DNA of 64,000 nucleotides, from positions 186,001 through 250,000 of the forward strand of contig NZ_JAFBCZ010000001.1 in the NCBI RefSeq assembly GCF_016907925.1, given 5' to 3'. Both the position numbers and the translations under genes were made by a program. Shown piece after piece: positions 44,600 to 64,000 of this stretch; the first letter of the stretch is position 1, and each line of letters begins with the position of its first letter. This stretch comes from Herpetosiphon giganteus (lineage in GTDB: Bacteria > Chloroflexota > Chloroflexia > Chloroflexales > Herpetosiphonaceae). The notes below the pieces were generated by a model. The model ran no database searches, was not told where the DNA came from, and saw only the letters and a list, made by a program, of their open reading frames with translations.

Positions 44600-46444
44600 A
44601 TGTGTGGTATTGTTGGATACGTTGGCCCACGCGAAGCAACCGATGTAATTGTGCGGGGCTTGGAGTTATTGGAATATCGCGGCTACGATTCGGCTGGCAT
44701 CGCCATTTTAGAGGATGCTGAGTTTCAAATGCGCCGCTCGGTTGGCAAGCTGGTCAATTTGCGCCGCCGTTTAAATACAGAACCAACCGCTGGTCATCAG
44801 GGCATTGGCCACACCCGCTGGGCAACTCACGGCGCTGTCACCGAAGCCAATGCCCACCCGCACCGCGATAATAGTGGCCGCGTGGTGGTGATTCAAAATG
44901 GGATTGTTGAGAATTATCTCGAACTCAAAAACCGTTTGATTGCGCAGGGCATTCGCTTTCATTCGCAAACCGATACCGAAGTTATTGCCCAAATGCTGGG
45001 CTTGTATACTGCCGAATATGGCGATTTTCAACGTGCCTTTGGCCAAGTGATGAGTGAATTACGCGGTGGTAACGCTGTGGTGGCAATGGATCAACAGCAA
45101 CCTGATTTGATTTTGGCAGCACGGATTGGCAATGCTGGCGCAGTGGTCATTGGCCATGGCGATGATGAAAATTTCGTTGCCTCGGATTTGCCAGCGATTG
45201 TCGATTACACCCAACAAATGATTTTCTTGGAAGATGGCGAGATGGCATTGGTGCGCTCGACTGGCGTGGAATACATCAAACTTGATGGCACGCCGATCAG
45301 CAAAACCACCACCACCGTTGCTTGGGACCCAGTTTCAGCAGCCAAAGGTGGCTACAAGCACTTTATGCACAAGGAGATTTTCGAGCAACCACGCACGACC
45401 GCTGATACTCTGCGCGGTCGCGTTGACATTGATACTGGGCGGATTGATTTGGACGGCTTGACCTTGAGCGATGCAGAAATGCAAAAGCTTGATTGCATCT
45501 ATGCAGTTGCCTGTGGTACTGCCTGGCATGCCTGTTTGATCAACAAATATTTTATCGAAACCTTGGCTCGGGTGCGGGTGGAAGTCGATTATGGCTCAGA
45601 ATTTCGCTATCGTAACCCAGTAATGAACGAGCGCACCTTATTATTGGCCTTAACCCAATCGGGCGAGACCGTTGATACCTTGGCGGCAATGGCCGAAGCG
45701 CTCGAACAAGGCGTAAAAAGTGTAGCCATTTTGAACGCCATTGGCTCGCAGGCTGGGCGCTTAGCCGATGGTGGCGCAATCTACATTCACTCAGGGCCGG
45801 AAATTTCGGTGGCCTCGACCAAAGTCTTTACCGGAATGTTGATGGCCGGCTATCTCTTTGCCTTACGTTTGGCCCAAGCCCGTGGCACGCTCACCAGCGC
45901 CGAAATTCGCGAGCATATCCAAGCGCTGATCGAAATTCCAGCCAAGATCGATACCATGCTCAAAGATACAACCCAGTATGATCAACTGGCCGATTTGTAT
46001 CATCACTCAACCGATATGCTCTACCTTGGGCGTTGGGTCAATGCTCCGATTGCGCTCGAAGGTGCGCTGAAGATGAAGGAAATTAGCTATATTCATGCTG
46101 AAGGCTACCCAGCTGGCGAGATGAAGCATGGCCCAATTGCCTTGATCGACGAGCGTATGCCAGTAATTTGTATTGCAACCAAAGATCATGTCTACGAAAA
46201 GATGCTCTCGAATGTTGAGCAAGTACTGGCCCGTGGAGGCAAAGTGATTGCCTTGGTCAATCCAAACGATGAACTGGTGCGCTCAAAAGCCCATCATGTG
46301 ATCGAAGTACCCGAAACCACACCCTTGCTGGCCGCAGTCTTAAACGTGATTCCAATGCAACTCTTCTCGTATGCCATGGCCGTCCGCCGTGGCGCAGACG
46401 TTGACCAACCACGCAACCTCGCCAAATCGGTAACGGTTGAGTAG
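44600..46444 (+). CDS. glmS: glutamine--fructose-6-phosphate aminotransferase (isomerising)
   Basis: The 614-residue protein is a complete GlmS. The N-terminal nucleophile follows the initiator Met (MCGIVGYVG), the glutaminase domain covers residues 1-240 and two SIS domains follow (LALTQSGETVDTLAAM and the second near LGRWVNAPIALEGALKMKEI). It makes glucosamine-6-phosphate, the first step of amino-sugar supply for the wall. The C-terminus NLAKSVTVE is identical to that of E. coli GlmS as I recall it, which is the region that TnsD reads at attTn7. The stop codon is at 46442-46444. It is controlled by the ribozyme upstream. The mobile element starts 26 bases after the stop and leaves the gene intact. 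Confidence 0.97.
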   Translation: MCGIVGYVGPREATDVIVRGLELLEYRGYDSAGIAILEDAEFQMRRSVGKLVNLRRRLNTEPTAGHQGIGHTRWATHGAVTEANAHPHRDNSGRVVVIQNGIVENYLELKNRLIAQGIRFHSQTDTEVIAQMLGLYTAEYGDFQRAFGQVMSELRGGNAVVAMDQQQPDLILAARIGNAGAVVIGHGDDENFVASDLPAIVDYTQQMIFLEDGEMALVRSTGVEYIKLDGTPISKTTTTVAWDPVSAAKGGYKHFMHKEIFEQPRTTADTLRGRVDIDTGRIDLDGLTLSDAEMQKLDCIYAVACGTAWHACLINKYFIETLARVRVEVDYGSEFRYRNPVMNERTLLLALTQSGETVDTLAAMAEALEQGVKSVAILNAIGSQAGRLADGGAIYIHSGPEISVASTKVFTGMLMAGYLFALRLAQARGTLTSAEIREHIQALIEIPAKIDTMLKDTTQYDQLADLYHHSTDMLYLGRWVNAPIALEGALKMKEISYIHAEGYPAGEMKHGPIALIDERMPVICIATKDHVYEKMLSNVEQVLARGGKVIALVNPNDELVRSKAHHVIEVPETTPLLAAVLNVIPMQLFSYAMAVRRGADVDQPRNLAKSVTVE

Positions 46445-46465: not shown

Positions 46466-46470
46466 TTTAC
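46466..46470. other. predicted 5-bp target site (attTn7) beside the element
   Basis: TTTAC directly precedes the TGT end of the element, 22-26 bases after the glmS stop codon, the position used by Tn7. If insertion was by the Tn7 mechanism, a second TTTAC should follow the unseen far end. Confidence 0.7.
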
Positions 46471-46560
46471 TGTGGAATGGGAATAAAGTTGGAAACTCGA
46501 AAATAAAGTTGGATACTACGAAAATAAAGTTGGAAACTCGAAAATAAAGTTGGAAACTAG
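46471..46560 (+). repeat. glmS-proximal transposon end with four TnsB-type binding sites
   Basis: After the terminal TGTGGAATGG come four abutting copies of AATAAAGTTGGAAACT-type repeats, beginning at 46481, 46501, 46522 and 46542 (period 20-21 bases). They resemble the TnsB sites of Tn7 (AAATAGTTGGGAACT). Four near-contiguous sites in 90 bases is the arrangement of the Tn7 right end. Confidence 0.92.
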
Positions 46561-47364: not shown

Positions 47365-48195
47365 ATGGCCAAAAGGCGAAGAGCCACAACACCTGAATCC
47401 ATCCAGAAGTTCATTGCAGCAGGCCGTGGGCAAAACGAAGGACGGAAATATAAGCCGTGGTTGACTATTCAGGATGTACCGTCTACTGGTCTAGTCCATC
47501 GAATCAAAGGAAGTAAACATGGACGTGTGCATCATTTAATGAGCAATTTGGAGCGTGACTACTTTTACTTACTTGATTGGGCTGACGATGTCATTGATAT
47601 TCGCGAACAGTATCCCCTTCTGCCTATCGAGGAAACACAGAATATTGCAAAAACGTGCAGGATAAAGCATCCACGCGATCCTGCAACGAAACATGACATT
47701 GTGATGACTTCCGACTTTGTTATCACCATGGAGAGAGATGGAAAACGCTGGATTCAAGTCCGAACCGTAAAACCATCAGAGAAGCTACGTTCCCAGCGAG
47801 TTCTCGAGAAGTTTGAGATCGAACGGAAATATTGGGAAACACGAGGAATTAACTGGGGAATTGTCACCGAGTTGGATATTCCATCCGTCGCAGTTCGCAA
47901 TATCGATGTGTTGCGACTTTATCGGACGATAACTGATCGTGGTCTTTCAGGCACGGAAATTCAGTCTATTGCCGATTACTTACGACGCAACTTGCGGAAT
48001 GCATTGTTTACATTGGCACAAATTACTACTGAATGTGATGCGGCGATGAGAGTTCGCACAGGGAGCAGCCTCGTCGTTGCTTATCATTTGATTGCAACGC
48101 GTCAATGGATAATTGATCTCCACCGTCCGTTTAATCCCACAGAACTTTTTGTACTCCAAGAACGAAAGGACTCCCATGGATCTCTGCCTAAATAG
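47365..48195 (+). CDS. tnsA: TnsA endonuclease of Tn7-like transposon
   Basis: This 276-residue protein has the expected TnsA length and active site: E63 in SNLERDYFYLLDW, D117 in MTSDFVI and K136 in VRTVKPSEKL, corresponding to the restriction-like Glu, Asp and Lys of Tn7 TnsA. The C-terminal DNA/TnsC-interaction segment FEIERKYWETRGINWGIVTE is also typical. TnsA cuts the 5' strand ends of the element, so with TnsB it gives cut-and-paste rather than replicative movement. AAAGGAAATCT precedes ATG 47365. Its 3' end overlaps tnsB by 20 bases. Confidence 0.95.
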   Translation: MAKRRRATTPESIQKFIAAGRGQNEGRKYKPWLTIQDVPSTGLVHRIKGSKHGRVHHLMSNLERDYFYLLDWADDVIDIREQYPLLPIEETQNIAKTCRIKHPRDPATKHDIVMTSDFVITMERDGKRWIQVRTVKPSEKLRSQRVLEKFEIERKYWETRGINWGIVTELDIPSVAVRNIDVLRLYRTITDRGLSGTEIQSIADYLRRNLRNALFTLAQITTECDAAMRVRTGSSLVVAYHLIATRQWIIDLHRPFNPTELFVLQERKDSHGSLPK

Positions 48196-50422
48196 TCTAC
48201 TTTCTTGGCATGACGAAGATAAAAAACCAAGAATTGAACGGGTTCTCTATATTAACCCTGTCCATGATCTTATCTATACAATCGATATACATAGTCATGA
48301 GGCGCTCCCGATAGCCTATCGCTATGCTGATATTAAAGCAACCCTTCAACGTCATGATATTACAACAATTCAAGAAGAAGCCAACCACCATTCCCTTCTA
48401 CCAGATCCTCCTACCTCTGATCAAAGCATTAGAGATTACCAAATATGGGAATTACGCACTAAAAAAGTGCTAGCTCGAAGAGATCAACGTTGGAATCTTA
48501 TTGAGCCGCTTGTTCAATCCCTCGATATATATGATTATACAAAACGAGGAGAACTCATCCGAAAACGCGCAGAAGAAACCAAAACGACCAAAAAAACAAT
48601 TTATCTCTACTTACGACGGTATTGGCAGGGTGGAATGGTTAAGAATTCCCTGCTTCCCTCTTATGCGAATAGCGGAGGGAAAGGTAAACAGCGTGAACCT
48701 GGTTCGGCAAAACGTGGAAGACCAAATAGCCTTACTGCGACCACTGGTATATCCTTGGGTGTTAATATCGATACGCAAACTGGAATTCTTTTCTTTAAAG
48801 GTATTCAGAAATATTACAATATACCCGAGAAACCTTCACTCAAACAGGCTTTCGCAAAAATAACAAGCGAGTATTTTAGTAAAGCCACAGGCAGTGGCGA
48901 ATTCGGTAAAGTCGAACTTCTTGACCCTGCAAAGCGCCCCACCTTTGACCAATTTCGTTATTGGTACAACAAGTATGGTGATCCCCTTAAGGCATGGTCG
49001 AGGAGGGTTCGTCCTTCACGGTATGAGCGTATGCTCCACCCCGCGATCCATGATGTGACCGCAGTAGCATTTGGACCTGGCTCATGTTTTGAGGTTGATG
49101 CGACAATTGCCGATGTTTATCTTGTCAGTTCGCTTAACCCTCGGCGGATTGTGGGTCGACCCGTCATTTATATTGTCAAAGATGTATTCAGTCGAATGGT
49201 TGTGGGATTCTCAATCCTACTTGAAGGGCCGAGCTGGTTAGGCGCTATGTTTGCTCTCGAGAATGCAACCGCAAACAAAGTGGACTTCTGCAAAGAATAT
49301 GCCATAGAAATCAAGGAAGAAGATTGGCCTTGTCAGCACTTGTGCGATAAGTTACGTGCTGATCGGGGAGAATTCGAAGGCTATAATGCTGATAACCTCA
49401 CCGAAGGACTGAAGATTGAGGTAGAAAATACCGCTCCCTATCGTGCTGATTGGAAAGCAATTATCGAACGCGATTTTGGACTGTGTAATGAGCGGTTTAT
49501 CCACTTTCTTCCAGGTGCAGTACGCGTGCGTGAACGTGGCGAGAAAGACTACCGACTTGATGCTCGCCTGACCCTCCGTGACATGCGGCAACTGATGATT
49601 TTTCGAATCTTAGAATACAACCATACACATCGCCTAACGAACTATGAGTTTGATGAGGCCATGATGCATGCTCAAGTTGAGCCATATCCAATAGATTTAT
49701 GGTATTGGGGCATTCAAAATCGGGTAGGGGCGTTGCGAGTTCTTCCACAGAACACTATCAGGCAAAATCTTCTCTACCGAACGGAAGGGTCGATTACCAG
49801 CAAAGGTATTCGATTTCAAGGGTTGCGATATACATGTTCGACCGCCCACAAAGAGTTTTGGTTTGCGACTGCAAATCGAAAGGGGAGTTGGAAAACAACG
49901 ATCTTTTTTGACCCACGATGTTTAGATACGATCTTTATCCGACATTCAAATGGTGAGATGGAGCCATGTATCTTACTTGAACGCAAAAAGGCGTTCAAAC
50001 GACGAGACTTGTATGAAATTTTGGATTTTTCCATTAGCCGGCAGCAGTCTCAATATAAACGACGTGGGAGGGATGAACAGACAAGGGCTGATTTTGATCA
50101 GGAAATTGAGCGCATCAAATCAAGGGCGCAAAAACGACAAGAAGCGATAGCGAAGAACCGAGATAATGAAAGTGATCGACGACGGATAAAAGGCATACGT
50201 ACCGACCGGCAAGCCGAACGAGAATTGGATCGACAAAATAATTTATGGACTTTTTCCGATCAATCTCCCGCCGAAATTACTGAGGCGATTCCATCATCCG
50301 ATGCGCCGTTGACTGTTACCCCCATCCAAAAACCTCCACGAACAAGGTTCACAGAGTCCAGTACCGATTATGCATTTCTCCGCTCAGTCAGGGAAGATGT
50401 ACGCGAGGCAAACAATGAATAA
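48176..50422 (+). CDS. tnsB: TnsB DDE transposase
   Basis: ATG 48176 (AAAGGA upstream) gives 748 residues. The catalytic triad is D308 (FEVDATIADVY), D396 (LRADRGEF) and E431 (DWKAIIERDF), spaced 87 and 34 residues apart as in TnsB/Mu-type integrases. N-terminal HTH regions before residue 200 should read the AATAAAGTTGG sites at the transposon end. A lysine/arginine-rich C-terminal tail (residues 620-700) fits the TnsC-contact tail. TnsB cuts and joins the 3' ends. The gene overlaps tnsA at the start and tnsC by 8 bases at the end. Confidence 0.95.
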   Translation: MDLCLNSLLSWHDEDKKPRIERVLYINPVHDLIYTIDIHSHEALPIAYRYADIKATLQRHDITTIQEEANHHSLLPDPPTSDQSIRDYQIWELRTKKVLARRDQRWNLIEPLVQSLDIYDYTKRGELIRKRAEETKTTKKTIYLYLRRYWQGGMVKNSLLPSYANSGGKGKQREPGSAKRGRPNSLTATTGISLGVNIDTQTGILFFKGIQKYYNIPEKPSLKQAFAKITSEYFSKATGSGEFGKVELLDPAKRPTFDQFRYWYNKYGDPLKAWSRRVRPSRYERMLHPAIHDVTAVAFGPGSCFEVDATIADVYLVSSLNPRRIVGRPVIYIVKDVFSRMVVGFSILLEGPSWLGAMFALENATANKVDFCKEYAIEIKEEDWPCQHLCDKLRADRGEFEGYNADNLTEGLKIEVENTAPYRADWKAIIERDFGLCNERFIHFLPGAVRVRERGEKDYRLDARLTLRDMRQLMIFRILEYNHTHRLTNYEFDEAMMHAQVEPYPIDLWYWGIQNRVGALRVLPQNTIRQNLLYRTEGSITSKGIRFQGLRYTCSTAHKEFWFATANRKGSWKTTIFFDPRCLDTIFIRHSNGEMEPCILLERKKAFKRRDLYEILDFSISRQQSQYKRRGRDEQTRADFDQEIERIKSRAQKRQEAIAKNRDNESDRRRIKGIRTDRQAERELDRQNNLWTFSDQSPAEITEAIPSSDAPLTVTPIQKPPRTRFTESSTDYAFLRSVREDVREANNE

Positions 50423-51917
50423 GATCTATCATAATCCTTTTGGATGGAGTGGAGATGAAGAAGATGCTATTTATCATGAACAAATCCTGCCGATGTATCA
50501 GGATAATCCCTTGATCGAAGCCTTACCACCAATCCGGCCTTCAGTTGAAGTATTCCGTAATCTTACCAAATTTCCACCAATGAAGTCAGAATATCGGTTG
50601 TTGCCAGCGGAAGAACGTTTGCACTTGATCAGATGCATCGATCAGTTTTTTCAGCCATTGCCACGACATGGACGCTTATTTAGCGATATATGTGGAATGA
50701 TTTATAAAGGGTATATTGCTAGAAACCCTCTTTCAAAAGGATTTTGGAAAACACTAGATGGTAATGTTGATAAGCTCGTTGTCAACTTACGACAGAAAAA
50801 TCATATCGCATATAGAAAAAGTGCGACAACGATGAGCCTCATTGGAATCAGTGGTATTGGTAAATCTCGTAGTCTAGAAGAAGTCCTTAGCTTGTTCCCT
50901 CAAATAATTAATCACCATACCTATCGCGGAGTTCCATTTCCTTGGAAACAGCTTGTGTGGTTAAAGTTGGAATGCCCCCATAATGGTTCAACTCGTTCCC
51001 TCGGACTAGCTTTTTTTGAACAAATAGACTGGATTCTTGGAACAAACTATATGCATGGTTATGCACGTAATGGCCGAGCTACAGAGATGGAGTTGTTGAA
51101 GAATATGGCCAGAGTTGGGGCGATTCATTCATTAGGTGTATTAGTGATTGATGAAATCCAAGCCCTTAGTCAAGCCAAAAGTGGTGGAGCTGAGGAGATG
51201 CTTAATTTTTTTGTAGAGTTAGTTAATACTCTCGGCCTGCCAATTATCTTAATAGGCACATATAAGGCACAAAAACTATTCAGTCAAGCCTTCCGCCAAG
51301 CTCGACGAGCCAATTCCTATGGTGGGGATTCGTGGGATCGCATGAAAGTTGATGAAGATTGGAAACTATTTTTAGAAACCATTTGGCAATTTCAATATAC
51401 AAAACACCCAGTTAAGCTCACGGATCGGCTTGCCGAGACCTTGTACGATCTATCCCAAGGTATCACTGATATTGCAATCAAAGTATTCATTCTTGGGCAA
51501 ACACTAGCCATTAGAACTGGTGAAGAAAGGCTGTCACCAGAATTGCTTATCACAGCATCAGAAAGAGCGCTATCGATGGTACAACCATTCCTAACAGCTC
51601 TGAGAACAAATAATATGGATCAATTTATGCTGATGGAAGATATTCAACCAATTAATCTAGAAATAGCACTCAATGACCTCAATTCAATTTATACCAATCA
51701 ACAATCCTTGGAGCCTCATCTTGATAGTAATGAATCCCTATCTAAGAGGGCATTAGGAATCGATTTAGCAATTGATAGCTCGTCAGTTGATGCCTATGAT
51801 CAACTCAAGCAACAAAATCTTATTAGTGATATAGCCAGCGATCTTAGCTTTCTCTCTAGAAATGGGATGGAGGAATCAAATGAGGCATCAACTGAAAAAG
51901 AGGAGTCAGAAAAATGA
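50415..51917 (+). CDS. tnsC: TnsC AAA+ regulator
   Basis: The 500-residue protein from ATG 50415 has Walker A GISGIGKS at about residue 143-150 and Walker B VLVIDEIQAL near 242-251, with sensor-like IILIGTYKA downstream. TnsC forms ATP-dependent rings or filaments on target DNA, links TnsD/TniQ to TnsAB and sets target immunity. It resembles other Tn7-like TnsC proteins in length and order. The C-terminal 100 residues are low-complexity and acidic and likely bind TnsAB. Start and stop overlap the neighbouring genes (8 and 4 bases), consistent with one operon. Confidence 0.94.
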   Translation: MNKIYHNPFGWSGDEEDAIYHEQILPMYQDNPLIEALPPIRPSVEVFRNLTKFPPMKSEYRLLPAEERLHLIRCIDQFFQPLPRHGRLFSDICGMIYKGYIARNPLSKGFWKTLDGNVDKLVVNLRQKNHIAYRKSATTMSLIGISGIGKSRSLEEVLSLFPQIINHHTYRGVPFPWKQLVWLKLECPHNGSTRSLGLAFFEQIDWILGTNYMHGYARNGRATEMELLKNMARVGAIHSLGVLVIDEIQALSQAKSGGAEEMLNFFVELVNTLGLPIILIGTYKAQKLFSQAFRQARRANSYGGDSWDRMKVDEDWKLFLETIWQFQYTKHPVKLTDRLAETLYDLSQGITDIAIKVFILGQTLAIRTGEERLSPELLITASERALSMVQPFLTALRTNNMDQFMLMEDIQPINLEIALNDLNSIYTNQQSLEPHLDSNESLSKRALGIDLAIDSSSVDAYDQLKQQNLISDIASDLSFLSRNGMEESNEASTEKEESEK

Positions 51918-53782
51918 TGCTTACTCAATTTCCTATACCCTATCCGGATGAACTACTCTATAGTATTTGCGCGAGGTATACCGCACATATGCGCTTCGCC
52001 TCGGCTAACATTGCTGTTGAAGAACTTTTTGGCACACGAAATATTGTAGCTGTTGTTGATCTTCCTAGTCGGCTAGATACTTTAGCCAATAGGCTACCCA
52101 AGTCATTAGGTCTTAATTCGGAACTACTTATCAGCAACCACACGTCATTGCCTTTGTTTGCACCTTTTTTACCTGGTGATGCTCTCCACAGAGTCCGAGG
52201 TTCAATGTTCGGCAATAAGGGGGGAACAGTCCATTCTCGCATTGGTATTATGGCTAGCGGGGTTAAGAGCCTCAGAAAGCTGCGTTTTTGTCCAATGTGT
52301 GTCAATGAAGATCGTTCAAAATATGGGGAATGTTATTGGCATCGGGTTCATAATATCGCAGGAATCAATGTTTGTGCCCATCACGGATGCATTTTACAAG
52401 ATAGCATTCTTTCATTTCAACGACAGAGCACCTATTACGCCTACAACGCAGCAGAAGATTACATACCTGAGATAGAGTTTGCAGATCCGACTCCAGCAAA
52501 TCTGCATCTCTATGCTCTTGCCAAGCAAGCCTATTGGCTCTTAAACAATACATCTAATGCTGATCTGAATGATATGTACACTGTCTATCGAAGATGCCTT
52601 GATTTAAGAGGGTTTACGACGGCATCCAATAGCATTCGTCAGCAGCAACTTCAATCCACATTCATAGATTTCTACACGCCTGAATTGCTTGATACTATAT
52701 CTTGCTCTTTGGAAGATGTTCATCAAACATGGTTATCCCGTCTAGTTGGCGGAGATTACGTAGCACATCATCCTCTTCGTCATCTTCTGGTACTTCATTT
52801 CTTTGGCCACACGCCGGAGAGCGCATTGAAGAGTCTTGATGAACCTACGCCCGATCCATTCGGTCACGGCCCTTGGCCATGTCTTAATCGAGTTTGTCCA
52901 CATTCACACAAAGATGTTATTGAAACATGTAATGTAAGGCGTAGTCGGTATACCCGTGATCGGCCAATTGGGACATTTGCTTGTCCATTTTGTGGATTCA
53001 GCTATATACGGACAGGGCCGGATCAATCTCAGAACTCGCGATATCATATTAGTAAAATCCAGGCATTTGGCTTCATATGGGAAAAGAGACTAGTTGAACT
53101 TTTCGCTCAACAAATCCTGAGCCTACGTGCTATAAGTAAGATCTTGGGTGTTGATCCGAAGACCGTCAAACGTCATGCACAACGACTTATCTATACTGGT
53201 AATAAAACCTTAAATAAAGACCTATCGAACACTAATGCTAGCCGAGATGCGACTGATCTTCTAATATCACATCGACACACATGGCTTAAAGCGATTAAAG
53301 TTTTCCCTCAATTCGGCGTATCCCAGTTGAGAAAACGCTTTAGCGCGTCCTATGCTTGGCTTTACCGAAATGACAAAGCTTGGCTTGTTCTCCATACCCC
53401 AGCCAGATCTAGTCGAATTATCCGTACCAATCGAGTATCATGGCCAGCCCGAGACAAATTGCTAGCACAAGCAGTTCAAGAGGCAGCAACCAGAATTTTA
53501 AGCCAGGAACAATGGCCCAATCAAATGACCTTAGGTGCTATTGGAAGAGAGGCAGCCTGTCTCCCGATCCTACAGCAACATTTGGATAAGCTACCGCAAA
53601 CGGCAGATCGTCTGAAAAGTTTGGTGGAAACGAGAGAGGAGTGGGCTGTAAGGCGGCTCCAATGGACTATTAACCAAGCACAAAATCAAGGACTCATTCT
53701 CAAGGGCTGGGAAATTGTTCAACGCTCAGGCTTAGGTCGTTTCCCCAAGAAATGGTTTGAACATCACGGTATCCCGTTTTAA
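51914..53782 (+). CDS. tnsD: TnsD-type TniQ target selector
   Basis: The 622-residue protein has the TniQ N-terminus (PYPDELLYSICARYTAHM) and a zinc-binding site with C126-x-x-C129 (RFCPMCVNED) and C154-x-H-H157 (NVCAHHG), followed by an extended C-terminal region with further C-x(n)-C pairs (CNVRR, ACPFCGFSY at about 330-360) and predicted helix-turn-helix segments such as LRAISKILGVDPKTVKRHAQ. This is the layout of TnsD proteins that read the glmS coding end and place the element next to it. It is longer than Tn7 TnsD (508 aa). The start ATG overlaps tnsC by 4 bases. Confidence 0.92.
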   Translation: MMLTQFPIPYPDELLYSICARYTAHMRFASANIAVEELFGTRNIVAVVDLPSRLDTLANRLPKSLGLNSELLISNHTSLPLFAPFLPGDALHRVRGSMFGNKGGTVHSRIGIMASGVKSLRKLRFCPMCVNEDRSKYGECYWHRVHNIAGINVCAHHGCILQDSILSFQRQSTYYAYNAAEDYIPEIEFADPTPANLHLYALAKQAYWLLNNTSNADLNDMYTVYRRCLDLRGFTTASNSIRQQQLQSTFIDFYTPELLDTISCSLEDVHQTWLSRLVGGDYVAHHPLRHLLVLHFFGHTPESALKSLDEPTPDPFGHGPWPCLNRVCPHSHKDVIETCNVRRSRYTRDRPIGTFACPFCGFSYIRTGPDQSQNSRYHISKIQAFGFIWEKRLVELFAQQILSLRAISKILGVDPKTVKRHAQRLIYTGNKTLNKDLSNTNASRDATDLLISHRHTWLKAIKVFPQFGVSQLRKRFSASYAWLYRNDKAWLVLHTPARSSRIIRTNRVSWPARDKLLAQAVQEAATRILSQEQWPNQMTLGAIGREAACLPILQQHLDKLPQTADRLKSLVETREEWAVRRLQWTINQAQNQGLILKGWEIVQRSGLGRFPKKWFEHHGIPF

Positions 53783-53997: not shown

Positions 53998-55227
53998 TTA
54001 AATTGGTTGTGGAATACTGCTTCCATGAGGTTCCTGAGTTGTAGTTAAGGTTTGCAAATCTTTTGATTGCGAGATCATCCAATCTTTCTGGGCCTCGGGA
54101 GAAATATAAACGGTTCGCAGGGTTACTGCACAACCGTGAGCATCAACCGCAGTAAATACACCAGGATACTCGTTGGGCAGTTGCGTTGGTGAAATAGCAC
54201 TATTGTTGAATATAGTGCGTATAGGCATTCGCTTACCATTCTGCTGAAAAATGGGATCTTTTTCCATCGGGCCGAGGAGTCGATCTGAGAAAAAATGATT
54301 GTAACAGGGCGCAAGATCTGACATATTGCGACTTTCAATGATAATCCGAAACCCTAATACAGGGCCATACATCATCAGTAGCATAAGGGCCTTATCAACA
54401 AGTTTCTTACCAATCGCGCTACTTATGGCAGCAGGGTCGGCAATATAGACAACGATCAAAGGTAAATCGTCACCGTTATAGGCATTCCATGTGAGAACAT
54501 GATGCGCTGCCAGTACCTCAGCCCGACGTTTTGCTTCAGCATGTAATTGTTTGATAGAGTCCAGTATTCCCTCAATACTCTGGGCGAACAAAAATGTATA
54601 GGCAGAGTTTTTCATTAAGGTAATATCCGCATCCTTAGTATTAAAAATGGCAAATTGAAGTTCACGAGGTGTTCGTTGGAGCGTCAGTGCTATCATTCCT
54701 GCCCACATCCATGCTGTTTTACCATAGCCTTCTGGACTAATAATAGCTACGTTATAGGTATCGGCACCAAGATCAGCATATGCCGCATCTGGTATCTGCT
54801 CTTGGGTAGACGGAATATACCATCCATAGGGGAAGAGATAACGTGCTTGTGGATCAATCGCTTGAAGATAGTCAATAGTCTCGATCAGTGTGGGTGGATT
54901 TAATAAGGCCATTCCCGTTTCGGGAATAGTTTTTAAATGCGTAAATGTTGGTTTGATAAGGCATGCTTGTGTTGGTTGAGAATGAATGCTGGAATTATTT
55001 TCTTGAGGATTGTGAGTCTGAGGAGGCGTTTTCCATACTGTTTCGATTTGAGGTGGTATGGTTCGAAGGAATTGGTATACGCGCAACACTTGTGGCCAGT
55101 GCCGATGCACGAGCATACACCCAATCATGCTCCAGAGAAAGAGAAGCGGCGCAATATTATCCCAAATAAATCCAAGCACGAGGCCTCCTACACCGTGTTT
55201 GAACCTCATCGATTCTAGCATTATCAT
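53998..55227 (-). CDS. FtsK/TraB-like P-loop ATPase with N-terminal membrane segment
   Basis: The protein (409 aa from ATG 55227; in-frame ATGs at 55221 and 55209 and a TTG at 55293 are alternatives) begins with one or two hydrophobic segments (GLVLGFIWDNIAPLLFLWSM) and then a P-loop ATPase domain. Walker A is SPEGYGKTAW, with Ser in place of the first Gly, and Walker B is LPLIVVYIAD. The layout agrees with conjugative FtsK/TraB/TcpA-like motors, but only one domain is present and the gamma DNA-reading domain is not recognised. It faces the tnsD gene and is divergent from the Xre gene at 55280. A role in DNA transfer or targeting is a guess. Confidence 0.6.
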   Translation of the reverse strand: MIMLESMRFKHGVGGLVLGFIWDNIAPLLFLWSMIGCMLVHRHWPQVLRVYQFLRTIPPQIETVWKTPPQTHNPQENNSSIHSQPTQACLIKPTFTHLKTIPETGMALLNPPTLIETIDYLQAIDPQARYLFPYGWYIPSTQEQIPDAAYADLGADTYNVAIISPEGYGKTAWMWAGMIALTLQRTPRELQFAIFNTKDADITLMKNSAYTFLFAQSIEGILDSIKQLHAEAKRRAEVLAAHHVLTWNAYNGDDLPLIVVYIADPAAISSAIGKKLVDKALMLLMMYGPVLGFRIIIESRNMSDLAPCYNHFFSDRLLGPMEKDPIFQQNGKRMPIRTIFNNSAISPTQLPNEYPGVFTAVDAHGCAVTLRTVYISPEAQKDWMISQSKDLQTLTTTQEPHGSSIPQPI

Positions 55228-55279
55228 AGCATAATTAATCCATTTTGGATTAAGAATATGGGCTGCATATGATAGCTTT

Positions 55280-55534
55280 ATGTCAGTCCTCAAACTCGAC
55301 TATCAAGATGCCTATCAACTCCTCGCTCGTCGGCTCAAAGAGGCGCGTGAATTAGCTGGTTTAACCCAAATCCAAGTGGCAGCCATTATGCACAAGTCAC
55401 AATCCTATGTAACCAAGTGCGAAACTGGTGAAAAGCGGGTTGATGTGATTGAGCTACTCATTTTCTCAAAGATCTATCATCGTGACCCCAGCTTTTTTAT
55501 TGATGATATTCTTCCCCTCGTACAGCCTTTTTAG
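55280..55534 (+). CDS. Xre-family HTH regulator
   Basis: This 84-residue protein is nearly all an Xre-type helix-turn-helix: ARRLKEARELAGLTQIQVAA, IMHKSQSYVTKCETGEKRVD, IELLIFSKIYHRDPSFFIDD. No Shine-Dalgarno sequence is visible before ATG 55280. It is divergent from the FtsK-like gene and 200 bases before the second TniQ gene, so it may control both. It is a different protein from the Xre at 46787. Confidence 0.82.
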   Translation: MSVLKLDYQDAYQLLARRLKEARELAGLTQIQVAAIMHKSQSYVTKCETGEKRVDVIELLIFSKIYHRDPSFFIDDILPLVQPF

Positions 55535-55737: not shown

Positions 55738-56643
55738 ATGGGGCACTACTTCCCATCTCTTTATCCTGGTGAAATATTCTATAGTGTCTGCGCAAGATAC
55801 TTAAGCCATCTGAGATATACCGATAAGAAATTTGCAAAATTAGAATTACTCCAACCATATACTATTTCTATCTATTTTCCAAGGAATATTACAGCTTTAT
55901 GTAATAAATATCAGATCGAGACACCATCGATAGAAGAAATAATCAATAAACATACTATATTTCCACTATTAAGAATTTTCCTCAGTAAGGAACACGCCTA
56001 TCTTAATGATTATAAAGATCCAAGTAAAATCTGGTCTATTCCGGCTTTAAAAAGGTATATCGATACCCATAAAAATGATCGATTAAGGTTTTGCAAAGAT
56101 TGTGTTATAGATGACAGGAAGACTTATGGAGAAGGATACTGGCATATTTTACATCAGGTACCTTGGATAAATATATGTTATAAACATTCCATCTTTTTAC
56201 ATACCCCTATATATCCTCGGAAAAACCTCATCAATAATTTTATTTCACTAGAAGATACTCTATCTAAATACAAAATAAAATATCTGTATAAAGTAAGGTC
56301 TATTCTCTATATGCTTTCAGATACTTTATTTATTTTCAATGAGCAACCAACTATAAGCTTTGATAAAATCTCAAATTCGATAAGAAGTATTATCTTAGAT
56401 AGAGGGTATACTCGAACAGGTATAAGTATCAGTCATAAAGCTTTATACAATAAAATTATAGATTCTTATCCAAAACAAACGATAGATTTTTTATATTCTT
56501 CAAAAACCATATCCAAGAAAAATTTTTCTATCATGATTATCCAAGATAATATCACCAGATCGCGTGTTGTTGCTTACCTCGTACTGTCCCACCTCCTTGG
56601 TTGTACACTACAGGATATCATCAAAAATTGTATGAATACATAA
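55738..56643 (+). CDS. short second TniQ-family protein (301 aa)
   Basis: The N-terminus (SLYPGEIFYSVCARYLSHLR) and the zinc site C119-x-x-C122 with C147 and H150 (RFCKDCVIDD, INICYKHS) are clear TniQ family features, similar to those of the TnsD above, but the protein ends after the TniQ core at residue 301 and lacks the long TnsD C-terminal DNA-binding region. Short TniQ proteins in other elements pair with a partner that finds the target (Cascade in CAST systems); no Cas gene or CRISPR repeat is seen here. The gene is much AT-richer than tnsABCD, so it may have a separate origin. AGGAG precedes the start. Confidence 0.8.
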   Translation: MGHYFPSLYPGEIFYSVCARYLSHLRYTDKKFAKLELLQPYTISIYFPRNITALCNKYQIETPSIEEIINKHTIFPLLRIFLSKEHAYLNDYKDPSKIWSIPALKRYIDTHKNDRLRFCKDCVIDDRKTYGEGYWHILHQVPWINICYKHSIFLHTPIYPRKNLINNFISLEDTLSKYKIKYLYKVRSILYMLSDTLFIFNEQPTISFDKISNSIRSIILDRGYTRTGISISHKALYNKIIDSYPKQTIDFLYSSKTISKKNFSIMIIQDNITRSRVVAYLVLSHLLGCTLQDIIKNCMNT

Positions 56644-57566: not shown

Positions 57567-58550
57567 ATGCGATTAGCCTCACTATACTATCAAGATAATC
57601 GACACTGGCATCCACTTCCAGGATGGGGACAATTTTTTCTTCGTCTTGGCCAAGCTCTCGGTGCTAAGAAGTCCAACCATACTCGTACCGTAGTCGGACT
57701 TGTGCTTCCAACCCGTGCATATGCAGCTCCTTTGATTGCAAGCGGCATTGTTTTCGGTAAAATAAACACGCTTTTGCCTACAAAAAATAGCCACCAGCAC
57801 TTCACAATGCTCTGTCAACTGCCCTTTGGAACAAGTGTTATTTATCGAAACAACAACAATAGATTAAAAGGATTTATTGAGGATGTTTCTGAGATAGATG
57901 GCGAAATACGTATCAAAATTCGCGTGGGATCTCAAAAAAGTGGGAGTTTATCTCACTGGCTAAACCAAGAGCTTGCACAATCAGTTGATGTTAGTACCCG
58001 TGAGTTTGAACGGTTGCCGAACTCCCCGATGGGAAAGAAATTACCTACAGAATCGCGTTTTCTTGAGACATTTCTAGAACTCCAAAATACTCGCCAATTT
58101 TTTCATTACTCTCAAATGAATTGCACTATTATTGGCTCATTAAAAGATTTAGAAAATGAGCTTACCACAAACCAGTTTGGTGTTAAAACTCCAGCAGGAG
58201 ATATTATTGAAGGGAATCTTCAGCATATTATCCGTGTACGACGTTGGTTGACTAATGGAGAAGCTTATAGAAGTGAAATTTATCCAACGAGTCATCCTGT
58301 TGAATCATTAACAGATAATCCCGATACCGTTATATTCGATACCGCCAATAGTTTTCTTCGTTGGCGTAATCACTTCCGATCTTCTAATCAGGTTGTGATA
58401 CTTGATAAGACTGACCTTTATGTTGAGGATGCTATAAATGTATTTAATCAAGGTTATATTGATCATCGAACAATGATTGGTGGACTTGGACATTTTCCAC
58501 CTTTACCAAAAGGTTGTGAATATGTTATCTATCAGGAAAAACCTCTATGA
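57567..58550 (+). CDS. unrecognised protein at the head of the DISARM-like operon (327 aa)
   Basis: I do not recognise this family. The protein is soluble, starts MRLASLYYQDNRHWHPLPGW, and has a basic N-terminal half and a beta-rich middle with GFIEDVSEIDGEIRIKIRVG. The C-terminal third resembles an alpha/beta fold ending in a beta hairpin (LPKGCEYVIYQEKPL). Its stop overlaps the next ATG (58547), so it is cotranslated with the 528-aa protein. Together the two are 855 residues, roughly the size of DrmE, which lies upstream of drmA in class 2 DISARM; a split DrmE is one hypothesis. No Zn or nuclease motifs are seen. Confidence 0.6.
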   Translation: MRLASLYYQDNRHWHPLPGWGQFFLRLGQALGAKKSNHTRTVVGLVLPTRAYAAPLIASGIVFGKINTLLPTKNSHQHFTMLCQLPFGTSVIYRNNNNRLKGFIEDVSEIDGEIRIKIRVGSQKSGSLSHWLNQELAQSVDVSTREFERLPNSPMGKKLPTESRFLETFLELQNTRQFFHYSQMNCTIIGSLKDLENELTTNQFGVKTPAGDIIEGNLQHIIRVRRWLTNGEAYRSEIYPTSHPVESLTDNPDTVIFDTANSFLRWRNHFRSSNQVVILDKTDLYVEDAINVFNQGYIDHRTMIGGLGHFPPLPKGCEYVIYQEKPL

Positions 58551-60133
58551 TATCTAGGTCATTTGCTTCGATCAAACAACTATATTCCATAAATGCAAAT
58601 TGTAGTGTGAACTATTTCCAAGTTTATCAACAAGAACTTCACTCCATTTATAAACAAATACGTTCATTACAGTTTGCTCTTGGTTCGCTTGTAGAGGAGG
58701 AATTTTGGATAAAATTTTTATGGCGAATTAAGCGTTATTGCTTTGATGTGGCATCTACACCGCTTTCTTTTAGCCATTTATCAAATCTTTTTTTTGAAAA
58801 TCAGCATAAAACTATGCGATACTGTCGCACCATATACCCACATTTTGTAGCGGATGTAGAAGCAATATACAATACCCTTTTTTCGATATTTATGATTAAA
58901 GAAAATCCAATATTCATTACCATACAATCTTTATTACAAAATGATAATCATACAGCTATCCTTATTAAAGAACCTCGCTTAGTTAATTATGTAAATGATT
59001 TTTTTGTTTCGCAGAATAATTCCGCTCATATAGAAGTTATGCCTCCTGCAAAGCTTAAAGGAACAATATTCTATGAGAAAATAATCTGTATTGGTCCTAC
59101 AAGGTGGTTTCCTCGATATATTTTTTCTGCGGCACGATCACGAAAAATTGATGTTATTCAGTACGCATGGATGACGGATGTATTTAAATCTCAGCCATTA
59201 TTGGTAGGAACTATTTCTCCATCTAGGATTGAAGATAATGATGAAGACCACTTTACATCTGATCCCAGATACATAAATATATCTAATTCAGTGCAGACGA
59301 TTACTCCCTCCGAATCAAATATGGATCCGCCCGATGAAGATATGGTTCATCTTCTGACAAAAAAAACTCCTTTAAATGCTTCTGTAAAATCTTATGATGA
59401 TACAGTTGATGCACAGCTTTTTATCTTGGCAGACCGGACTGCTGTATTTCTAGAGGCTTCTGATACAACAAAAGTTCTTGTACTTGATGTTGGGAGTTCG
59501 TATGAAGATAGTTATACTAGCGAACAAACATTAATAACTCGCGTGCCTGTAAAGTTACTCCGTACTGGTATCTTTGTATTACTCAGAACTGGTGAGAGCG
59601 GAGATTATATAATTACCATTGCTGACCAAATTTTAGGTGTACGTGCAAGCCATCTACGATACTTACAAGAAGATTGGAAGGATAAACTCCGCCGACACGT
59701 ACAACGATCAGATCTTTTTCAAGTCAGCATAGCGTTACTTGACCATGGTTCTCTACTTGCACAAGAATCCAATGTGAGAAATTGGATGTCAAGTCGGACT
59801 ATTCGACCTCAAAAAGACTCAGATTTCAAAGCCATTATGCGTTTAATAGGTTATGAATCACAGTTTGATAAATATCAGAATGCAGCAAATGAAATCCGTA
59901 ATGCTCATCGGCAGGCAGGAAAAATGATTCGTCAGATGTTACTTAATCAAGTCCATTCTATTGATTACCATCAATTACATACACATGGACGGTTTGATTT
60001 TGTGTTACCGGATGTACCAGATATGACCTTATCAGCCTTCCGAATCAATCAGTGTATTAGCACCATTTCTCGGGTAACAGCAACCCGTATAGGACAAGTG
60101 TTTAATCTGGAGCATGAACTATGGCGCGAATGA
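58547..60133 (+). CDS. unrecognised protein, possible DrmE-like C-terminal part (528 aa)
   Basis: The protein is soluble. The N-terminal 220 residues are helical. An acidic, low-complexity linker (residues 225-280) and a beta-rich domain follow (TAVFLEASDTTKVLVLDVGS, GIFVLLRTGESGDYIITIAD). The C-terminal 150 residues are helical with a terminal FRINQCISTISRVTATRIGQ. I cannot name it with certainty; by position (just upstream of a helicase/drmA pair) and length it could be the second part of DrmE. AGGAAA precedes ATG 58547, and the stop overlaps the next gene. Confidence 0.6.
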   Translation: MISRSFASIKQLYSINANCSVNYFQVYQQELHSIYKQIRSLQFALGSLVEEEFWIKFLWRIKRYCFDVASTPLSFSHLSNLFFENQHKTMRYCRTIYPHFVADVEAIYNTLFSIFMIKENPIFITIQSLLQNDNHTAILIKEPRLVNYVNDFFVSQNNSAHIEVMPPAKLKGTIFYEKIICIGPTRWFPRYIFSAARSRKIDVIQYAWMTDVFKSQPLLVGTISPSRIEDNDEDHFTSDPRYINISNSVQTITPSESNMDPPDEDMVHLLTKKTPLNASVKSYDDTVDAQLFILADRTAVFLEASDTTKVLVLDVGSSYEDSYTSEQTLITRVPVKLLRTGIFVLLRTGESGDYIITIADQILGVRASHLRYLQEDWKDKLRRHVQRSDLFQVSIALLDHGSLLAQESNVRNWMSSRTIRPQKDSDFKAIMRLIGYESQFDKYQNAANEIRNAHRQAGKMIRQMLLNQVHSIDYHQLHTHGRFDFVLPDVPDMTLSAFRINQCISTISRVTATRIGQVFNLEHELWRE

Positions 60134-61845
60134 TCCCTCCCTATTTTGCTGAACAGACCGCAAGTCCAGGAGAGCGCGAGATTTTTATACGATTGAGAGA
60201 TGATCCATTGACGCATGATTGGACTATTCTCCATTCCCTAGACATTGTTCATCATCGGGAACAGATTAGCGGAGAAATTGATTTTGTTCTGATTATTCCG
60301 GAAAAAGGAGTACTTTGTGTAGAAGTTAAAGCATGTCGTTCGTTAAGCAGAAGCAATGGGTTATGGTTTTATGGAACGCAACCCCACGGTGATGCACGAG
60401 GCCCATTTAAGCAAGCATCATCTGCTATGCACAGTCTTCGCAAGGTACTTATCGATAAACATCCTGAGTTGAGAGGTCTTCTATTCTGGTCAGCTGTTAT
60501 TTTTCCATATTTGCGTTTCACCAATACATCGCCAGAATGGCATCAATGGCAGGTAATTGATAGTAGTGGTTTTACACGATCACTTAGTCAATCATTACTA
60601 GCCGTTATGAATAATGCTAAAACATTCTTCCAATCTCATCCTCGTACAGCTCATTTATACCAAGGACACGAACCTTCTCCCACATCACTACAAACAGATC
60701 AAATCATTGCATCGTTACGTTCTCACTTTGAGTTTTTTGAAAGCCCACAGTCACGTCGAAATCGGCTCGAATGCGATTTGAAGCGGTATACGATAGAGCA
60801 GTCAGTAGCCCTTGATGCTATGGCAACAAATCCACGAGTTATCTTTGCTGGGCCAGCAGGTACAGGCAAGACCATCCTAGCTATTGAATCAGTCCGACAA
60901 AGCGTAGCTTCTGGCCGTCGTGTACTTTTTCTCTGTTTTAATCGATCGCTGAGTCAGCATCTAATCGAACAAGTACAAGATCTCGGGACTCAGGTTAAGT
61001 GTGCAACTATACATAGTTATATGCTCCAATTAGTGAATATTTCAGCTGATCTCAATAATCCAACGTTCTGGAAAGAATCTCTTCCTAATGCAGCGATTGA
61101 ACACCTTCTAGATCAGTCGGAAGTGGCATTTGATGAGATTGTAATAGATGAAGCACAGGATATCTTGCGAGATAATTACCTTGATGTACTTGATTTGAGT
61201 GTAATTGGTGGCCTTGCAGCTGGACGATGGCGTTTTTTTGGAGATTTCGAAAAACAAGCAATCTATGACGCAGCAGACGTATCGCTCGACTCATTTATCA
61301 AGAACCGAGTTCCAAATGTTCCTGTGTTTCGGCTCCGCATAAATTGCCGGAATACCCCACGAATTGTGGAACACGTACATTTACTGAGTGGTTTAACGCC
61401 GAAATATAGCCGGACTCTTCGACCTGATGATCAAAGAGAACCAGAAATACATTATTACCAAGATGATATTACCCAAAAAAATCTATTGATTTCAATTATG
61501 GAACGACTATATAGTGAAGGATTTGCAGGCCGCGATATAGTAATTCTCTCTCCAATAAGTGGGAAAAATAGTCTTGCTTATAAGATACATCAGCATCCTT
61601 GGAAAGAGAGATTAACACCTTTTCGAGTTCGAGATCAACCAGGAGGTTATATCCAACACACATCTATTGCTGCATTTAAAGGAATGGAATCCGCTGTTGT
61701 AATTGTCACAGATATCGAAACAATCCTTGGCCTACACGCAAGTTCACTACTCTATATTGCTGTAACTCGAGCACTTCAACATCTAATCTTGCTTATGCAT
61801 ACAAGTACAAAGAAGGAAATTCAGCAGGTTCTCTCACTCCAATAA
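60121..61845 (+). CDS. NERD-domain SF1 (UvrD-like) helicase
   Basis: The 574-residue protein begins with a NERD nuclease-related domain (SGEIDFVLIIPEKGVLCVEV with the catalytic-type E-x-K, about residues 50-75). It continues with an SF1 helicase: Walker A AGPAGTGKT at about 242-250, Walker B VIDEAQDIL near 341-349, motif III-like INCRNTPRI, motif V-like TSIAAFKGMESAVVIV and motif VI YIAVTRALQHLIL. NERD-SF1 proteins recur in defence islands and are thought to process DNA, with the NERD domain cutting. It overlaps the preceding gene by 13 bases and lies 38 bases before drmA, so it belongs to this operon. It is not among the DISARM genes I know. Confidence 0.85.
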   Translation: MARMIPPYFAEQTASPGEREIFIRLRDDPLTHDWTILHSLDIVHHREQISGEIDFVLIIPEKGVLCVEVKACRSLSRSNGLWFYGTQPHGDARGPFKQASSAMHSLRKVLIDKHPELRGLLFWSAVIFPYLRFTNTSPEWHQWQVIDSSGFTRSLSQSLLAVMNNAKTFFQSHPRTAHLYQGHEPSPTSLQTDQIIASLRSHFEFFESPQSRRNRLECDLKRYTIEQSVALDAMATNPRVIFAGPAGTGKTILAIESVRQSVASGRRVLFLCFNRSLSQHLIEQVQDLGTQVKCATIHSYMLQLVNISADLNNPTFWKESLPNAAIEHLLDQSEVAFDEIVIDEAQDILRDNYLDVLDLSVIGGLAAGRWRFFGDFEKQAIYDAADVSLDSFIKNRVPNVPVFRLRINCRNTPRIVEHVHLLSGLTPKYSRTLRPDDQREPEIHYYQDDITQKNLLISIMERLYSEGFAGRDIVILSPISGKNSLAYKIHQHPWKERLTPFRVRDQPGGYIQHTSIAAFKGMESAVVIVTDIETILGLHASSLLYIAVTRALQHLILLMHTSTKKEIQQVLSLQ

Positions 61846-61883
61846 ATGTAATGGAGCTACTTCAATTTGAAAAGGAGGGATTG

Positions 61884-64000
61884 ATGGATAATCACCACCA
61901 GAACCGCAAGTATATTGTTGATCATCTGCGTGCAGAATTGGTTGGACCGATGCCAGAAGGAAGAGAGATTGATACAACCAAACCAGTTCGGTTTGATGAC
62001 CAGAAACAGGCATATGGACCTTGGAAGCAGGCCGAATCGGGTGAAGAGATCTTGATTCGTGATGTACCCCACAAGCGATATGGTATAGGAGTTTTATATC
62101 CCTTTGGTACCTTGCAAGAGCCAGAATTATCTAAAAATGACTTAGATATCGTCAATGATCCAATCATTAACAACACAACCCAGGAACACTTTGCTATTTT
62201 AACTGAAGATGCCTACAAAGCAGCTGAAACAATTGCTGCACGTATCGATGTTGCTGAAACTGAGGAGATGGATCTTTCAACTGCAAATTCCTACAAACCA
62301 AGTAGTATGGGAGTAAGTTTCTTAGCAGATCTGCCAAATAACAGTATGTTGGTAGTACATGTGACGGGGGGACGGTACCGACAACAGGCAGTGAGTGTGC
62401 AAGAGCGAGAACAAACATGGTGGTGTAGATCTTCTATTTCTGGTACGGCGATATTTACATCCGATGAATTAAAACTCTATCCATACAGATTTTTATGTTC
62501 CAAGCCGGTTGAAGGAACAAACCTCGAAAACTTCAAATTGAATATAGAAGTCTATTCTCGTCCTACTCGTAACCTAGGGGAACGTTTACTTACCATCAGT
62601 TTGGTAAATCGCAATATCGGTACCGAGAATAATGATCAATCGATGCTATTTCAAAGTCACTTTAAGGTAACACTTACATCAGACTCATTATCAGAACACG
62701 ACGGATGGATTCATCCCTATCCTAGTTACCTGACTATTGCTCCTGATGCGGAAGAGCAGTCTCTATCGTTATTATATCGTCATGCTGAAATATTTGCTAC
62801 TGGACATGGGTGTGCAGCAGATTGGGGTATTGCTAGTACATCTTTAGAAAAATCTAAAGGATATGTAGGGTGGGTGAGTGCAGAATGTTTACCGTGTGTA
62901 GAAACACCTAGTATTACACCAGATATTTTAGATTCAAGTGGGGAAAAGATTATTGTTCCAATGGCACCACTAGCAGGATTGATTGCAACCGATGATGGAT
63001 TTCAGTCACTTGATAGGGTGATTGAAGGGTATGAGACTTGGATTAAACAAAAACAGTCTGAGCTTGAGCAACTTGCACCCCAATACCAAGCAGCCGCACA
63101 AGATCATCTTAATCAATGCCGCACATGTGCCAATCGTATGCGTGATGGAGTTCAATATCTCCGCACAAATTCAAATGCTGAAAAGGCTTTTCGCCTAGCG
63201 AATCACGCAATGCTGCTTCAGCAGGTTCGTGCAAATCCCAAAATTCGGTATTACCAATACGATAGTATTACTCAAACCAGTTCCTTTTCAGAACCTTTTA
63301 GTGAACCTGATTTACTTTTGGGTAACAAACGTGGAAACTGGCGTCCATTTCAAATCGCGTTTCTTTTGATGTCACTTCAATCTACAGCCGATGGAAATAT
63401 AGAAGATCGACGTATGGTCGAGTTGATTTGGTTTCCGACGGGGGGTGGCAAAACCGAAGCCTATTTAGGTCTCGCTGCGTTTTCGATATTCTTCCGTCGG
63501 CTTATAGATCCTAGGGATACTGGTGTGCAAGTATTGATGAGATATACTCTTCGATTACTTACCGCGCAGCAGTTCCAACGTGCGGCAGGTTTAATATGTG
63601 CTATGGAATATTTACGCCGACAAAACCAATCTGTTTTAGGTGTTGACCCTCTTACAATTGGTATTTGGCTTGGATCTTCAATTACTCCCAATACCCGTAA
63701 AGATGCACGGAATATATTAGCTGAACTACGAAGAGAACAAGGTGAAAATAAATTTATTCTTACTCGATGTCCTTGGTGTAGAGCCCAAATTGGACCTATA
63801 AAATCATCCGCTCAGACTACAAGAACACGATCAAAACGGAAACGTGATAGTAGTCCTACTGTTGTGGGATATGAAACCGATACACAATCAGTAATATTCA
63901 GATGCTCTGACGAAAAGTGTCCATTTCACATACAGCTTCCAGTATATGTAATTGATGAGGATGTGTATCTCAAGCGACCTTCACTTGTTATAGGGACAGT
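61884..64000 (+). CDS. drmA: DrmA-type DISARM helicase, 3' partial
   Basis: ATG 61884 follows AAAGGAGGG; an in-frame ATG at 61851 is also possible. The frame is open to the window end (at least 705 residues). The N-terminus YIVDHLRAELVGPMPEGREI and RYGIGVLYPFG resemble DrmA proteins. The SF2 motif I is WFPTGGGKTEAYLGL at about residue 514-528, motif Ia is VQVLMRYTLRLLTAQQ, and a zinc-ribbon-like CPWC is followed by C-x(4)-C and the typical LPVYVIDEDVYLKRPSLVIGT that precedes the DEAD-like box in DrmA. DrmA is the core helicase of DISARM anti-phage systems and acts with DrmB and a PLD nuclease, DrmC. These and any methylase would be expected beyond the window. Confidence 0.85.
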   Translation, partial: MDNHHQNRKYIVDHLRAELVGPMPEGREIDTTKPVRFDDQKQAYGPWKQAESGEEILIRDVPHKRYGIGVLYPFGTLQEPELSKNDLDIVNDPIINNTTQEHFAILTEDAYKAAETIAARIDVAETEEMDLSTANSYKPSSMGVSFLADLPNNSMLVVHVTGGRYRQQAVSVQEREQTWWCRSSISGTAIFTSDELKLYPYRFLCSKPVEGTNLENFKLNIEVYSRPTRNLGERLLTISLVNRNIGTENNDQSMLFQSHFKVTLTSDSLSEHDGWIHPYPSYLTIAPDAEEQSLSLLYRHAEIFATGHGCAADWGIASTSLEKSKGYVGWVSAECLPCVETPSITPDILDSSGEKIIVPMAPLAGLIATDDGFQSLDRVIEGYETWIKQKQSELEQLAPQYQAAAQDHLNQCRTCANRMRDGVQYLRTNSNAEKAFRLANHAMLLQQVRANPKIRYYQYDSITQTSSFSEPFSEPDLLLGNKRGNWRPFQIAFLLMSLQSTADGNIEDRRMVELIWFPTGGGKTEAYLGLAAFSIFFRRLIDPRDTGVQVLMRYTLRLLTAQQFQRAAGLICAMEYLRRQNQSVLGVDPLTIGIWLGSSITPNTRKDARNILAELRREQGENKFILTRCPWCRAQIGPIKSSAQTTRTRSKRKRDSSPTVVGYETDTQSVIFRCSDEKCPFHIQLPVYVIDEDVYLKRPSLVIGT

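Follow-up and report, generated by a model that had tools for sequence, protein, structure and literature searches.

Does the genome of Herpetosiphon giganteus (6.16 Mb, 85 contigs) encode, upstream of the DISARM gene drmA, a DrmE protein divided over two genes, or are the two genes found there new defence components? We addressed this question in a window of 64,000 nucleotides on contig C1 (NZ_JAFBCZ010000001.1, positions 186,001 to 250,000), beyond which the operon extends. An earlier note on this DNA had described two open reading frames (ORFs) of 327 and 528 amino acids (aa) with a four-base overlap, had proposed them as a split DrmE or else as new defence proteins, and had suggested HHpred or structure searches of the two sequences, separately and joined, and a look for fused versions in other genomes. 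Both ORFs lie exactly where it had placed them:

57567-58550, + strand: ORF1 (drmE-N), 327 aa, ATG start, DrmE N-terminal half
58547-60133, + strand: ORF2 (drmE-C), 528 aa, ATG start, DrmE C-terminal half
58547-58550, + strand: ATGA, four-base stop/start overlap of the two DrmE halves

Together they amount to 855 aa (327+528), and as the two NCBIfam models of DrmE have 785 and 838 positions, the similarity in size that had been pointed out holds.

Library searches recognized ORF2. The NCBIfam model DrmE_fam (NF038316) aligned with its residues 98-471 over profile positions 415-791 of 838 (E 9.1e-21), and the Pfam family DrmE_C (PF24957) matched above its gathering score of 27 (37.4 bits, E 2.8e-9) in the helical C-terminal domain:

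59651-59950, + strand: DrmE_C Pfam match, residues 369-468 of ORF2

These matches identify ORF2, by homology, as the C-terminal half of DrmE. ORF1 had no match in scans of the Pfam, NCBIfam or PADLOC libraries, and PADLOC 2.0 detected neither DrmE half at this locus. When the two sequences were joined, the match to DrmE still did not reach into ORF1. There are 414 DrmE_fam positions before the ORF2 match and 424 residues (327+97) before it at this locus, so that ORF1 fits the missing N-terminal part of DrmE in both length and position. Because joining gave no extension, a profile-profile comparison was needed.

The first search for relatives was a tblastn of each half against plasmids. It found adjoining relatives of ORF1 and ORF2 in Nostoc HK-01 and Deinococcus, and ORF2-like C-halves with a gene in front of them in Rhodococcus opacus and Priestia. 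Scanning genomes with ORF2 by itself returned nothing beyond patterns; an alignment of DrmA, used in its place, gave 80 DISARM-type loci. Profiles of the N-gene and the C-gene, built from the tandem pairs, found 42 N-genes, 43 C-pieces of less than 620 aa and 25 longer single-gene DrmE proteins (789-1725 aa, mostly 835-930), in which the C-part matches ORF2 and the remaining N-part is usually about 320-400 aa long. Fused versions are thus present in other genomes, with the same gene order. Comparison by hhalign of the N-gene profile with the N-part of 14 fused DrmE proteins gave a collinear match over 255 columns (94%, E 1.4e-7), while the six control comparisons of the N-gene profile, with the profiles of the fused C-part, the C-gene, NERD, DrmA, DrmB and the methyltransferase, all stayed at or below 0.5%. 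The C-gene profile matched the fused C-part with an E of 6e-38. At the level of profile comparison this establishes ORF1 as homologous to the N-half of single-gene DrmE, and the proposal of a split DrmE is borne out for both genes. Six of the DrmE proteins found (L056:3038-8215, L068, L072, L073, L077 and L085) carry about 250-850 additional N-terminal residues, and the extension in L056 begins with a P-loop (DGADGTGKST).

The two-gene state is not limited to H. giganteus. We found the tandem pair in 41 further loci from about 12 phyla (42 loci counting H. giganteus), and with so many other cases the split is not accidental. The N- and C-genes were strictly paired, always N before C, and 25 of 40 adjacent pairs had the four-base start/stop overlap in the correct frame. 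On a tree of 87 DrmA sequences, made by a quick search and with support from the Shimodaira-Hasegawa-like approximate likelihood ratio test (SH-aLRT) alone, the one- and two-gene labels need one change, and the two-gene side has an SH-aLRT support of 100. They again need one change on an independent tree, built from 63 DrmE-C regions (support 98). The two-gene side of the DrmA tree holds Actinomycetota, Acidobacteriota, Myxococcota, Nitrospirota, Thermodesulfobacteriota, Rhodothermota, Cyanobacteriota, Chloroflexota, Bacillota, Pseudomonadota, Verrucomicrobiota and Dormiibacterota, and a Deinococcus plasmid likewise carries a two-gene DrmE. The split of DrmE is ancient and conserved and, on these trees, arose once. 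The simplest reading is that a fused ancestor underwent fission, since the two-gene branch is surrounded by fused forms, among them DrmC-bearing ones in outgroup position; both trees are unrooted and the direction is one that we infer. The DrmE sequence itself is weakly conserved (18-22% mean column identity). Two plasmid copies are interrupted further. In Priestia megaterium (L013:10066-12537) DrmE lies in three ORFs, with a C-half of 206 + 278 aa in different frames whose break separates lobe 2 from the C-terminal domain, either by decay or by further fission, and in Nostoc HK-01 plasmid1 (L011:12902-13843) a transposase gene on the opposite strand separates the halves.

What the two halves might be was approached with AlphaFold2 models of ORF1 and ORF2 from 37-row alignments, from which plasmid-record rows were left out. 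ORF1 was modelled with a mean predicted local distance difference test score (pLDDT) of 89.7, ORF2 with 82.4 and low values across residues 220-283. When Foldseek candidates were aligned with VIA-align, ORF1 matched RecA-like domains of DEAD, NS3, SNF2 and NAT10 proteins (Z 6.5-8.5, up to 161 residues) and its residues ~78-147 matched Tudor domains (Z 6.5-7.5, 52-65 residues; Foldseek probability up to 0.99). For residues ~17-215 of ORF2 the top rows were Dicer, DRH1, RIG-I, LGP2/MDA5, Hef and XPF (Z 10-11.3), with Hef (1wp9) aligned over 183 residues at 3.2 A (Z 10.8). The predicted parts are:

57798-58007, + strand: Tudor/SH3-like beta barrel inserted in the RecA lobe of ORF1, residues ~78-147
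58595-59191, + strand: RecA-like lobe 2 with a helical insertion of the Hef/XPF/RIG-I type in ORF2, residues ~17-215

In these predictions ORF1 forms the first RecA-like lobe, into which the Tudor-like barrel is inserted, and ORF2 forms the second, with its helical insertion, and the C-terminal domain. The gene break would therefore sit between the two lobes of a superfamily 2 (SF2)-type core. Two complementary lobes of one helicase core, modelled in the right order, give a consistency that neither half alone would give. SF2 enzymes carry PTGxGKT at motif I. At the corresponding site of ORF1 (strand 40-47, helix 53-69) we found PTRAYAA at residues 48-54, a degenerate Walker A in which P48 is invariant and a P-loop lysine occurs in none of the 37 aligned relatives; the Walker A/P-loop pattern GxGK[ST] was absent from all 42 ORF1 relatives searched. 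The motif II aspartate (D258) is kept in 26 of 37 sequences and is followed by G instead of E. The lack of a P-loop lysine together with the altered motif II points to a dead ATPase, as in XPF, which is without ATPase motifs. We therefore regard DrmE as a probable dead SF2 helicase core, cut between its lobes in the modelled structures.

The best explanation as a whole, to which we give a moderate preponderance of belief, is that the two genes produce one protein, DrmE, as two subunits of such a dead SF2-type helicase core. Several results weigh against it. ORF2 alone scored 73.8 bits with DrmE_fam, below the curated cut-off of 80, and the joined sequence, with 71.6 bits, was also under it; such a score is that of a distant family member and not a failed homology. 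Foldseek found no match with E <1e-3 in the PDB for either model. The ORF2 model has a predicted template modelling score (pTM) of 0.51, with the flexible link at 220-283, and its Z of 10-11 can be inflated by the helical portion. For ORF1, a Z of 7-8.5 is in the range of common arrangements.

The strongest competitor holds that the two DrmE proteins are an inert scaffold or regulator which makes contact with DrmA and DrmB (DrmAB) or with the methyltransferase, but never with DNA. Both the lost ATP site and the weak conservation would suit such a role, but Hef, FANCM, XPF and RIG-I, to which lobe 2 is similar in its predicted fold, are nucleic-acid binders, and by this analogy we consider such a role unlikely. 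It is decidedly improbable that only ORF2 derives from DrmE and that ORF1 is an unrelated defence protein which displaced the N-half without homology. This would fit the absence of library matches for ORF1 and the weak similarity to fused N-halves in hmmsearch (best full-sequence E 0.0015); it does not fit the collinear profile-profile match with its clean negative controls, nor the predicted fold of ORF1, which supplies the very RecA lobe that ORF2 is without. To a local frameshift or assembly error in a decaying system we assign a very small probability. The tandem pair occurs in 41 independently sequenced loci and groups as a single clade on both trees, the break carries a clean start codon and the four-base overlap is frequent; this conservation refutes the idea, even if the Priestia and Nostoc copies described above show that some have decayed. 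That both genes are new defence proteins unrelated to DrmE, the alternative of the earlier note, has only the silence of PADLOC on its side and is practically dismissed by the family matches of ORF2, which refute it for that gene, and the profile match of ORF1.

In the earlier note the two genes were placed in front of drmA. They are upstream of it but not directly adjoining, as a gene for a NERD nuclease/UvrD helicase intervenes:

60121-61845, + strand: NERD nuclease/UvrD-like superfamily 1 (SF1) helicase, 574 aa, candidate effector
61851-63998 in the window, continuing to 65399 in window numbering, + strand: drmA, 1182 aa
65386-67287, outside the window: drmB, 633 aa, DUF1998/MZB, next to drmA
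67552-68718, outside the window, - strand: C5 methyltransferase gene, after drmB

The complete DrmA scored 885 bits with NF038325 (E 6.3e-266), just below the equivalog cut-off of 950, matched PADLOC DrmA (3.5e-210) and has intact GGGKT and DELH motifs. DrmB reached 447 bits with NF038324 (cut-off 240). The methyltransferase (PF00145, 5.3e-51) contains the PPCP and ENV motifs and matches PADLOC DrmMII (3.3e-33), with DruM2 and type II models scoring higher. Judging from these profile matches, the locus has the DISARM features DrmA, DrmB beside it and a class 2 C5 methyltransferase (DrmMII), and the order E-NERD-DrmA-DrmB, with a methyltransferase, is conserved across loci.

For a DISARM operon, the gene that stands out as unexpected is the one for the NERD/UvrD helicase, located between drmE and drmA. 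Its product matched Pfam NERD (5.9e-12) and PADLOC RTasNERD-Hel (3.4e-31), and its nuclease residues E18, D54 and E68-x-K70 and helicase motifs GPAGTGKT and DEAQ are intact, in columns conserved in 53-56 of 56 relatives. Among the loci of the DrmA tree the gene occupies this fixed position in 30 of 40 with two-gene and 16 of 25 with one-gene DrmE. Most DISARM-type loci near that of H. giganteus have it, whether DrmE is split or not. No phospholipase D (PLD) gene that could encode the DrmC nuclease was found downstream of drmB within the mobile element that carries the operon. DrmC has been reported to be dispensable and often missing (PMC9142583), and its absence was therefore not treated as excluding DISARM. 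Among the loci studied, DrmC directly after drmB occurred in only three (L015, L018 and L019), all with one-gene DrmE and without NERD; L077 has NERD plus a weak PLD-like gene just after drmB. Given this exception and a sample biased to DrmA proteins near that of the window, we do not claim a strict mutual exclusion of NERD and DrmC; the remaining PLD matches lay kilobases away and were discarded. Two-gene Bacillota loci are without NERD, and some of them (L036, L049 and L083) carry, downstream of drmB and next to it, McrBC-like AAA together with LlaJI or PD-(D/E)XK genes, or an HNH gene. The effectors around a core of DrmE, DrmA and DrmB may thus be exchangeable.

A possible mechanism can be outlined from these components. 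Stop/start coupling would allow both DrmE subunits to be made together, and they would likely re-assemble into a dead, non-hydrolysing helicase fold like that of XPF. The re-formed DrmE might act as DNA-recognition and assembly subunit, as its fold relatives suggest, and bring DrmAB and the NERD nuclease-helicase to ends or forks of unmethylated phage DNA; host DNA would be marked by the C5 methyltransferase. Instead of DrmC, NERD/UvrD, whose motifs are conserved, would do the cutting as effector. DrmAB has been reported to load on and prefer 5'-overhang DNA and to be damped by methylation (PMC9142583).

The operon lies within a Tn7-like element:

44600-46444: glmS
46471 to 69435 (right end outside the window): Tn7-like element, 23 kb, at attTn7 behind glmS
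46484-46558, - strand: four TnsB-site-like repeats AGTTTCCAACTTTA, left end
47365-48195, + strand: TnsA (Pfam, PADLOC)
48113-50422, + strand: TnsB (Pfam, PADLOC)
50370-51917, + strand: TnsC (Pfam, PADLOC)
51914-53782, + strand: TnsD (Pfam, PADLOC)
69286-69422: three further TnsB-site-like repeats, right end

TTTAC (46466-46470), ending 26 bases past the glmS stop, is followed by the left end TGTGG at 46471, and TTTAC follows again after the right end, a 5-bp target duplication at both sides. The repeat occurs six times in the window with 0.38 expected. The element thus has TnsABCD, repeats at both ends, the duplication and the site after glmS, and in a sibling genome of the same genus the right flank lies within ~25 bases of glmS, which is the empty site. 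From the element ends, TnsABCD and this empty site it follows that the DISARM operon is cargo of the Tn7-like element. Besides TnsD the element encodes a second, short TniQ-family gene (55738-56643, 301 aa); second TniQ-family genes of this kind give Tn7-like elements a second targeting route. A 431-aa ORF within the element (53998-55293, - strand) has weak similarity to FtsK/SpoIIIE and to EssC of the type VII secretion system (E 7e-10, EssC model).

Compared with known systems, the locus resembles class 2 DISARM most. It shares DrmA, DrmB, the C5 methyltransferase and, upstream of drmA, homology across both halves to DrmE (NF038323/NF038316, PF24957, PADLOC DrmE); it differs in its two drmE genes, in NERD/UvrD between drmE and drmA and in the lack of DrmC. 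We call it a variant because DrmE is encoded in two ORFs at 42 loci and not as one polypeptide. The closest fused counterpart are loci with single-gene DrmE and NERD (e.g. L016/G189, L043, L053, L055 and L070), which have the same E-NERD-DrmA-DrmB order, but one DrmE gene of ~835-930 aa and a position on the opposite branch side on both trees. With the cores of XPF, Hef, FANCM and RIG-I/MDA5/Dicer the DrmE halves share two predicted RecA-like lobes and a helical insertion at lobe 2, and differ by the lack of detectable sequence similarity, the two polypeptides and the Tudor-like barrel in lobe 1; the likeness to helicase cores such as XPF, Hef and RIG-I may indicate a way of working, not family membership. 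Searched against the sequences of solved structures, the profiles of both halves gave only chance matches. The DRT-associated NERD helicase (PADLOC RTasNERD-Hel) and the Mokosh NERD have the same domain order of NERD and SF1 helicase, whereas the gene here has a fixed place in a DISARM operon that includes no reverse transcriptase. ARMADA, BRIGADE, TALON and Druantia also have a central YprA/DrmA-type helicase, and TALON a NERD nuclease too (PMC12458937), while the helicase here is of the DISARM DrmA type with a separate DrmB. That survey of YprA helicases describes many uncharacterised DISARM-like classes and does not mention DrmE (PMC12458937). In our literature search DrmE appeared as an unexplained auxiliary without fold or function and NERD was not coupled with DISARM as an operon member; the original DISARM paper and subscription journals may mention more on DrmE and may hold an earlier mention of NERD. 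The two-gene DrmE system is a new variant of DISARM, whose biochemical function we infer. Evenly balanced, in our judgement, is the wider proposal of a distinct and widespread DISARM class with a dead-helicase DrmE of the Hef/XPF/RIG-I type, one ancient fission at the lobe boundary and a NERD effector replacing DrmC, in which case the DrmE of every class 2 system would be an inactive SF2 helicase acting as sensor or loader.

Since PADLOC 2.0 is blind to both halves here, current counts of this lineage are probably too low, or its systems are labelled incomplete. The host range of about a dozen phyla and the carriage on plasmids and a Tn7-like element explain the spread of the system. Which nuclease acts in systems lacking DrmC is a published question, to which the NERD nuclease-helicase offers one answer. 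No other DISARM subunit is as poorly understood as DrmE. Should it be a dead helicase core, a role in recognition and assembly instead of catalysis could be tested directly, and the two separate genes would provide a natural route to express, mix and dissect its lobes.
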